Of a stretch of 64,000 nucleotides of DNA, positions 30,863 to 32,766 are shown piece after piece. The position numbers and the translations under genes were made by a program. Numbering within the stretch: the first letter of the stretch is position 1; each line of letters begins with the position of its first letter. Under the pieces are notes generated by a model. That model saw nothing but the letters and a program-made list of their open reading frames with translations. It did no database searches and had not been told where the DNA came from. Location of the stretch: assembly GCA_019115165.1 (NCBI GenBank), contig DXEB01000014.1, positions 19,692 through 83,691 of the forward strand, given 5' to 3'. Source of the stretch: Candidatus Anaerotignum merdipullorum. Lineage in GTDB: Bacteria > Bacillota > Clostridia > Lachnospirales > Anaerotignaceae.

Positions 30863-30876
30863 TTAGATTGGTATGA

Positions 30877-30909
30877 AAACGCTTTCTCTCAGCGAGAAAG
30901 CGTTTTTTT
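30877..30909 (+). terminator. intrinsic terminator after hup
   Basis: aaaacgctttctc-tcagc-gagaaagcgttttttt. Confidence 0.9.
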
Positions 30910-30938
30910 GGAAAAATTTTTGAATAGGAGGCAGTAGC

Positions 30939-31267
30939 TTGGCTACCAGAAAAGAGTGTTTGCAGTTTCTTTTGGATTAGCTTTCTGAAATGGAGCAAAT
31001 CAGATATCGTGCCATGATGGGAGAATATCTCTTATTTATTGTGAAAAGATCATCGGGTATCTTTGTGACGACTGCTTTTTGGTAAAGCCGGTACCTGCGG
31101 CAAAAAGATTGCTGCCGCAAGCACCATTGGTATCGCCGTATCCAGGCGCAAAAGAATTGTTGCTGGTGGAAGATGTGGAGGATGAAACATCTCTGCAAAC
31201 GCTGCTGGAAAATATGTATCCACAACTGCCGATACCAAAAAACAAAAAAACATCAAAGGGGAATTGA
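30939..31267 (+). pseudogene. TfoX/Sxy N-terminal-domain protein, pseudogene
   Basis: TTG start after GGAGG; LATRKECLQFLLD*LSEMEQIRYRAMMGEYLLF [1-nt deletion] YCEKIIGYLCDDCFLVKPVPAAKRLLPQAPLVSPYPGAKELLLVEDVEDETSLQTLLENMYPQLPIPKNKKTSKGN; stop TAG at 30978-30980. Confidence 0.85.
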
Positions 31268-31270
31268 TCT

Positions 31271-31513
31271 ATGCGCATTGACAAATTTTTGAAAGTTTCC
31301 CGCATCATCAAGCGAAGAACCATTGCCAATGAAGCCTGCGACGCGGGACGAGTGTCTCTCAATGGCAAGGTGGTTAAGGCTGGTGCAGAAGTGAAATGCG
31401 GTGACATCATTGAAATACAGTTTGGCAGCAATACCACCAAAGTGGAGGTATTGAGTCTACAGGACTCCACCAAAAAGGAAGATGCGGCAGGGATGTATCG
31501 TGCCGTGGAATAA
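31271..31513 (+). CDS. rqcP: S4-domain RNA-binding protein RqcP (YabO)
   Basis: MRIDKFLKVSRIIKRRTIANEACDAGRVSLNGKVVKAGAEVKCGDIIEI; synteny with yabP-yabQ-divIC. Confidence 0.92.
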   Translation: MRIDKFLKVSRIIKRRTIANEACDAGRVSLNGKVVKAGAEVKCGDIIEIQFGSNTTKVEVLSLQDSTKKEDAAGMYRAVE

Positions 31514-31515
31514 GG

Positions 31516-31544
31516 ACATAATGAACCGAAACCTCTCATATACT
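31516..31544 (+). promoter_or_regulatory. candidate sigma-E promoter for yabP
   Basis: ACATAAT (31516-31522), 14 bp, CATATACT (31537-31544), against the sigma-E consensus kmATATT-N14/15-CATAcAmT. Confidence 0.45.
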
Positions 31545-31573
31545 GTAAAAACAGTATGGGAGGTTTTTGTTTT
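31529..31573 (+). terminator. intraoperon hairpin/attenuator overlapping the yabP Shine-Dalgarno
   Basis: aaacctctcatatactg-taaaaa-cagtatgggaggttt, 15 bp with a 2-nt bulge, then ttgtttt; GGGAGG in the 3' arm. Confidence 0.65.
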
Positions 31574-31853
31574 GGGGGAAGAAAAAAGAAATCCGAGAGA
31601 GCATTGGATACAAATGACAGACAGGGAACGGATGCAAATTTTCGGTGTGACGGATGTCTTAAGTTTTGACGAAGAAAATGTAACGGTGGATACGACCTGT
31701 GGAATGCTGTTTTTGAAGGGTGTGGGTCTGCATGTGGGGCGTCTGAATCTGGAAGACGGAGAAGTAGCGATAGAAGGGCATATCGACGCAGTGACTTATG
31801 CAGATAGCATGGATTCTGGGAAACATCCGCTGTTGGCGCGGTTGTTTCGCTAA
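31572..31853 (+). CDS. yabP: sporulation protein YabP
   Basis: REHWIQMTDRERMQIFGVTDVLSFDEENVTVDTTCGMLFLKGVGLHVGRLNLEDGEVAIEGHIDAVTY; TTG start proposed at 31572 after GGGAGG; ATG at 31521 is the alternative. Confidence 0.85.
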   Translation: MGEEKRNPREHWIQMTDRERMQIFGVTDVLSFDEENVTVDTTCGMLFLKGVGLHVGRLNLEDGEVAIEGHIDAVTYADSMDSGKHPLLARLFR

Positions 31854-31870: not shown

Positions 31871-32383
31871 GTGCAGGTAAGCGTACAAGGACAGGCGGCG
31901 CTGTTTTTGTTGTGTGCGTTGCTGGGCGGCAGTATGGGGCTGCTGTATGATGGTCTTCGCCTGCTGCGGCGCATGATTCCCCACCGCCGGATGCTGGTGC
32001 AGGCAGAAGATGGCATTTACTGGATGACAGTGGCGGTGTTGGTGTTTGCGGTGCTGCTGCGTCAGAACCATGGGCAGATCCGCTTATTTTTGCTGCTGGG
32101 CATTTTTGGAGGAATGGGATTGTATGGATTGACCCTGAGCCGACTGGTGATGGCAGTAGGAGAAGGGGTACTGCGGTTGGTCAAGCGGTTGCTTCTATTG
32201 CTTTTGACGATCGTACTGACACCTTTTCGCTTATTATGCCTGCCCTTTCGCAGACCTGCTGCAAAAATTGCCGCTTTTTGCGCAAAACAACGGAAAAAAT
32301 ACTTGCAATTATGTAAAGTATATGTGAAAATAAAGGCAGGCACACTGCGGCGGGATATTCGCTTTTTGCGCCGAAAACCATAG
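31871..32383 (+). CDS. yabQ: spore cortex biosynthesis protein YabQ
   Basis: multi-TM; GGSMGLLYDGLRLLRRMIPHRRMLVQAEDGIYWM; position after yabP; GTG start. Confidence 0.85.
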   Translation: MQVSVQGQAALFLLCALLGGSMGLLYDGLRLLRRMIPHRRMLVQAEDGIYWMTVAVLVFAVLLRQNHGQIRLFLLLGIFGGMGLYGLTLSRLVMAVGEGVLRLVKRLLLLLLTIVLTPFRLLCLPFRRPAAKIAAFCAKQRKKYLQLCKVYVKIKAGTLRRDIRFLRRKP

Positions 32384-32397
32384 AAAGGGTGGCTGCC

Positions 32398-32691
32398 ATG
32401 GAAGGCAAGATCAAAAGCAGAAAAAAAAGCGGGTGGTTTGTGCGGATATTTTTGCTGATATTCGTATTGGCAGTAATTGTGGGCGTCTATTGGCAGTATC
32501 AGAAATACCGCGCACTTCAGGTGGAGATGGCAGATCTGGAGCAGCAAATTGCACAAGAACAGCAAAAAATGTTGGATTTTGAGGCGAAAAAGGATTATTA
32601 TAATAGTGACAGCTATATTGAACAGATTGCACGAGAAAAGCTTGGGCTGGTAAAAAGCAACGAGGTATTGTATATCAATCGTGGTCAATGA
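32398..32691 (+). CDS. divIC: septum formation initiator DivIC/FtsB family
   Basis: short N-terminal TM plus coiled coil LEQQIAQEQQKMLDFEAKKDYYNSDSYIEQIAREKLGLVKSNEVLY. Confidence 0.88.
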   Translation: MEGKIKSRKKSGWFVRIFLLIFVLAVIVGVYWQYQKYRALQVEMADLEQQIAQEQQKMLDFEAKKDYYNSDSYIEQIAREKLGLVKSNEVLYINRGQ

Positions 32692-32737: not shown

Positions 32738-32766
32738 TTGACAAACGAAAAAGAACTGGATATAAT
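32738..32766 (+). promoter_or_regulatory. promoter of tRNA cluster
   Basis: TTGACA-17 bp-TATAAT. Confidence 0.85.

Follow-up and report, generated by a model that had tools for sequence, protein, structure and literature searches.

In phage T4, the long early RNA of gene e folds over its Shine-Dalgarno (SD) sequence, and the RNA made from the late promoter, which is without the 5' strand of that fold, is translated, an effect of 100-fold (PMC3014915). For sigG (spoIIIG) of Bacillus subtilis, located downstream of spoIIG, a hairpin of 20 or more base pairs has been proposed to keep read-through RNA from PspoIIG from being translated, and it cannot form in the RNA from PsigG (PMC5942855). In the B. 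subtilis yabMNOPQ-divIC-yabR operon, yabPQ are controlled internally by sigma-E (PMC1925097), and sigma-E control of yabP and yabQ is also given in PMC3533761; an earlier reading of the DNA studied here (the original prediction), which had assigned both genes to the sigma-E regulon of Bacillus, agrees with these two papers. Here we describe an element between rqcP and yabP that is probably a promoter-in-hairpin silencer of read-through RNA for yabP, and with it yabQ, in which the 5' end, the use of sigma-E, the termination and the effect on translation are all predicted.

The rqcP-yabP locus and its hairpin

The window, i.e. the whole stretch of 64,000 nucleotides analyzed, belongs to a metagenome-assembled genome (MAG) of the Anaerotignum group (Lachnospirales). 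Within the genome collection used, its nearest named relative is Anaerotignum lactatifermentans DSM 14214, whose yabP locus (L002/L047) shows this layout too. The genome encodes sigma-E, with a score above the family cut-off. Domain searches gave the order MazG, HU, S4 (rqcP), YabP, YabQ and DivIC, and the features from rqcP to divIC lie on the + strand. The housekeeping gene rqcP, an open reading frame for an S4-domain protein (31271-31513; PF01479, E 3e-10), ends with the TAA stop codon at 31511-31513. Downstream lie yabP, read from a TTG start codon (31572-31853; TIGR02892, 78.6 bits, cut-off 75.4), the spore cortex gene yabQ (31871-32383; PF09578, E 3e-23) and a divIC-like septum gene (32389-32691; PF04977, E 7e-15). 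Because it adjoins yabQ, divIC possibly depends on read-through. A DivIC-like open reading frame is found 3' of yabQ in most relatives with a readable flank. A promoter scan of the + strand between 30000 and 32737 of the window listed no match of the sigma-70 type, which fits such a dependence and does not prove it. Downstream of divIC, at 32738-32766, is a perfect 12/12 sigma-A promoter (TTGACA-17-TATAAT) that probably serves a tRNA cluster, as there are tRNA-like translations in that region.

Read-through RNA had been predicted to come from mazG-hup-rqcP. The gene order is as predicted, but the route is less simple, since a strong terminator directly follows hup (about 30875-30908, -18.5 kcal/mol) and a decayed gene, which we take to be tfoX-like, also precedes rqcP; it is therefore uncertain where RNA reading through into yabP would originate. 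The hup terminator is a perfect intrinsic terminator within the hup-rqcP gap (30863-31267). The decayed gene in this gap retains AGGAGG and a TTG, after which a stop codon in frame and a shift of the reading frame interrupt it, and its readable end is VKPVPAAKRLLPQAP... The gap is much shorter in the congeners examined than in the window.

Directly after the rqcP stop codon, the original prediction had drawn a 15-bp stem with one G-U pair and a 2-nt bulge, followed by TTGTTTT, which proved correct to the base. The hairpin occupies 31529-31566. Its lower 5' arm, AAACCTCTC (31529-31537), contains the anti-SD and lies in the promoter spacer, with its final C being the first base of the -10. It is followed by the bulge AT (31538-31539), the upper 5' arm ATACTG (31540-31545), the 6-nt loop TAAAAA (31546-31551) and the 3' arm, composed of CAGTAT (31552-31557) and GGGAGGTTT (31558-31566). 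The SD of yabP, GGGAGG (31558-31563), is within the 3' arm, 8 nt 5' of the in-frame TTG at 31572, as had been claimed. A second G-run is found 3' of the SD at 31574-31578. The T-rich tail TTTTTGTTTT (31564-31573) follows the stable stem at once and gives it the form of an intrinsic terminator. The hairpin was missed by a simple scan of the window for terminators, probably due to the bulge and the G within the T-run.

The segment 31511-31590 folds at -23 kcal/mol with a z of -4.2, and only one of 200 dinucleotide shuffles was equally good. In this predicted fold the SD pairs with a segment upstream of it, as a read-through silencer requires. Relatives keep the structure although their bases differ. 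For the RNA from 31551, no stable fold is predicted (-7.1 kcal/mol, z -0.6). The computed probability that the SD is unpaired is about 0.01 in the read-through RNA vs about 0.5 in the predicted sigma-E RNA, the latter being only about half because of a weak alternative pairing. None of the Rfam families reached its gathering threshold on the hairpin (best rliE, 25.4 bits vs 90), and a known RNA family was rejected as its identity.

Sigma-E promoters have a -35 element with an ATA core, a spacer of 14-15 nt and the -10 element CATA(T/C)AnT. The window carries ACATAAT (31516-31522), 14 nt, and CATATACT (31537-31544), at exactly the positions given in the original prediction, and matches this consensus, taken as it stands without retraining, in the -35 core, the spacer and the -10. 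Reading the -35 one base earlier gives GACATAA-N15 for the same site. The -10 is inside the 5' arm, and counting seven from its last base puts the predicted start at 31551, the last base of the loop. A conserved, predicted promoter is thus placed across the 5' arm, and its predicted RNA would be without that arm.

Conservation in the genus and recurrence across Clostridia

The stem, the -10 and the SD are retained in all seven genus genomes and, with compensatory changes, in two other genera. A -35-like element is present at the same spacing in 7/7 congeners. L014 and L020 of a second genus and L015 of a third likewise have the stem, the -10, a -35-like element at a spacing of about 14-15 nt and the SD in the 3' arm. 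The -10 CATATACT is identical in the seven congeners and L014 and is CATATAAT in L020 and L015. The arms and loops vary among these genomes, and the loop sequences are unconserved between genera. The original prediction had proposed comparing this spacer across relatives for covariation and a conserved -10, and both were found. In the 9-bp lower stem, 93.7% of cells pair and three pairs are changed on both sides. The covariation score of 0.455 vs 0.277 in shuffles was reached by 2 of 500 shuffles and dropped at every slide of the lower-stem partner. The pair counts are limited to the lower arms, because MAFFT, when given the hairpin in full, aligned the variable upper stems wrongly. As it comes from seven distinct rows with arms aligned by hand, this covariation is moderate evidence when taken alone.

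The layout was examined in 205 distinct clostridial yabP loci, many of them from MAGs. For each locus, the start codon and the SD were assigned from the sequence, and the sigma-E-like site with the best match was picked from the sequence only, with no regard to the fold. The promoter weights were hand-set from the known consensus and early examples, so the promoter calls are sequence matches. We then computed how probable it is that the SD hexamer is paired to bases lying upstream of the predicted sigma-E start. For the 99 loci with a promoter score of at least 18, the mean SD pairing was 0.593 vs 0.324 in dinucleotide shuffles (p 5e-10), and at a score of at least 19.5 (59 loci) it was 0.671 vs 0.347. 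The same code, applied to the same loci with a nominal cut point 15 nt before the SD, as a sigma-E site is absent there, gave no excess for the SDs of rqcP (0.221 vs 0.278 shuffled) and hup (0.165 vs 0.235), both of which show avoidance instead. Averaging by family, which limits and partly removes relatedness, gave 0.569 vs 0.279 for 28 families (p 9e-6). Shuffling the 14-15 nt promoter spacer alone left a difference of 0.593 vs 0.468 (p 7e-6), with a p of 1e-4 for the 92 loci outside the genus. The yabP spacers are C-rich, and a pyrimidine tetramer complementary to an SD is found in the spacer in 42% for yabP, 38% for spoIVA, 14% for yqfC and 9% for spoIIIAA.

We counted 55 strong cases, in which pairing exceeded 0.8 and no more than 1 of 20 shuffles was equally good, and 13 of the 28 families include one or more of them. 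The anti-SD site lies between the -35 and the -10 in 34 of them, on the -10 in five, on the -35 in five, upstream of the -35 in ten and downstream of the -10 in one; the entire promoter is within the loop in a few loci (L158, L159). The comparison thus supports the promoter-in-hairpin layout of the original prediction, which recurs in many clostridial families. About half of the sampled loci have the feature weakly or not at all, so yabP does not require it. Among these are several genera of the window's own family (g3, g5, g9, g11 and most of g17), and most of g17 retain the sigma-E-like site without it.

Other sigma-E genes gave graded results. An excess was absent at yqfC (0.25 vs 0.26, 14 usable loci) and weak at spoIIIAA (0.44 vs 0.24, p 0.011), where it was gone under spacer-only shuffling. 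At spoIVA, it was intermediate (0.53 vs 0.29, p 0.002) and not significant when the spacer alone was shuffled (p 0.25). The yqfC and spoIIIAA results led us to reject the same effect at every sigma-E gene, and the smaller excess of the same kind at spoIVA weakens a claim of specificity for yabP. The layout is strongest at yabP, with hints of use elsewhere.

Individual loci add to this picture. In two other families, the spoIVA loci L278 and L274 clearly resemble yabP in layout: in AATCCTCATATATTG...CAATAGGAGGATT, the 5' arm contains the -10 and the 3' arm the SD. Most members of the family have a conserved palindrome about TGTATNNATACA in the spoIVA leader, just 3' of the predicted sigma-E -10 (L302 of the window genome, L274, L275, L279, L283, L285-L290 and L294-L301). 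Its centre, GG, CC, TA or similar, is 2 nt long, which points less to an RNA hairpin than to a DNA operator at the start site. The window genome contains 23 matches to CATAYANT-N4..34-GGRGG, among which a good -35 together with a full hairpin was found only at yabP. A possible second case is L343 (C19), with the -10 CATACAAT and an SD whose pairing with bases upstream of the predicted start is partial (0.65); its open reading frame is presumably D-Ala-D-Ala-carboxypeptidase-like.

Termination, SD occlusion and the start of YabP

The original prediction had the hairpin both terminate transcription and hide the SD. The terminator signature held up within the genus, where the tract after the stem is T-rich in 7/7 genomes, and did not hold generally, as 27 of the 55 strong hairpins are without a T-rich tail. 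An ordinary intrinsic terminator of rqcP, with the promoter/SD overlap due to a short intergenic gap and the hiding of the ribosome-binding site without a role, would account for the tails of the congeners and for the larger share of strong hairpins than of hairpin-less loci with at least five T in the seven positions after the SD (51% vs 19%), and short intergenic gaps are frequent. Yet half of the strong hairpins pair the SD without such a tail (L114, L103, L079 and L025 among them), the excess persists when only the promoter spacer is shuffled, the SDs of rqcP and hup do not share it, and termination has no need for a 3' arm placed exactly on the SD. We consider this account unlikely. Predicted termination is common yet not general, and predicted SD hiding is the property shared by the strong cases; the latter is the more general because the U-tract, present in the genus, is missing from many other hairpins. 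As judged from the sequences, silencing of translation is the better supported of the two effects.

It is also conceivable that the hairpin acts in yabP mRNA from other promoters, as a binding site or a thermosensor, and that the placement of the sigma-E promoter is unrelated. Hairpins at a ribosome-binding site that damp their own transcript are known, such as the small one of sigG (PMC5942855). We find this very unlikely, given that the conserved partner of the SD lies upstream of the predicted start, that loops are unconserved between genera and that no Rfam family reached threshold. In a further alternative, YabP would be translated in read-through RNA from ATG 31521, coupled to the rqcP stop codon, and the ribosomes would open the hairpin. 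This ATG is in frame in the window and has AAGGA 4 nt upstream. Among the seven congeners, however, it occurs in the window's genome only; in L002-L004 the hairpin contains a stop codon in frame, 27 nt 5' of the TTG, L009 and L010 have no upstream in-frame start, L005 has no equivalent ATG, and homology to YabP starts 3' of TTG 31572. The in-frame stops and the confinement of the ATG to one genome make TTG 31572 the likely start, as originally predicted, and ATG 31521 was rejected; that YabP begins there in read-through RNA seems to us exceedingly improbable. The weak TTG start, shared by the window and most congeners, would add to a low leak of yabP.

A probable read-through silencer within a promoter and its known relatives

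The promoter-in-hairpin silencer that we favour would work as follows. RNA from the housekeeping side would carry the sigma-E promoter spacer, whose pyrimidine tract would pair with the yabP SD, and the resulting stem would hide the ribosome site; in Anaerotignum, the U-tract 3' of the stem should also terminate much of this RNA. During sporulation, RNA polymerase with sigma-E would start at the loop or at the beginning of the 3' arm. As the anti-SD arm would be missing from that RNA, the stem could not form, the RNA should not terminate, and the SD would be exposed for TTG 31572. It is plausible that the purpose is to keep RNA that is needed at divIC in growing cells silent for yabP. Since yabP and yabQ lie between the vegetative genes rqcP (upstream) and divIC (downstream), transcription through them puts growing cells at risk of producing spore-cortex proteins. 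With a promoter spacer that also serves as anti-SD, such leak would be prevented without an extra factor or extra DNA, and one promoter choice would set both transcription and translation in a compact design. This would also account for the presence of sporulation genes within housekeeping operons, and the complementarity of spacer and SD provides a sequence rule by which other internal promoters can be scanned. More tentatively, clostridial sporulation genes in housekeeping operons may repeatedly have evolved sigma-E promoters with a spacer complementary to their own SD, so that RNA passing to a downstream vegetative gene, here divIC, would be silent for the spore protein and the sporulation RNA would be free, in effect an insulator within a promoter.

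The B. subtilis yabMNOPQ-divIC-yabR operon agrees with the present locus in gene order and in the internal control of yabPQ by sigma-E, which is predicted for the window; the passages on this operon in PMC1925097 do not mention a hairpin at the yabPQ promoter. We found no earlier description of a hairpin at yabP in the open literature, and a subscription paper could hold one. The sigG hairpin follows the same logic as the yabP element, likewise in sporulation (PMC5942855). It differs in the gene, the sigma factor (sigma-F/G) and the compartment, its upstream operon is itself a sporulation operon, and the passages on it in that paper do not describe a terminator function. The same logic is also found at T4 gene e, and at soc, 49 and I-TevI, with the promoter within the 5' strand (PMC3014915). 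The T4 cases involve phage late promoters and the timing of lysis, whereas yabP has a predicted sporulation promoter of the sigma-E type. Unlike in T4, the anti-SD of yabP is mostly in the spacer between the -35 and the -10, and Anaerotignum adds a terminator-like tail. The principle is therefore already known from T4 gene e and was proposed for sigG; what is new is its location at yabP, an anti-SD supplied by the sigma-E promoter spacer, the terminator-like tail that one genus adds and its recurrence across many families.
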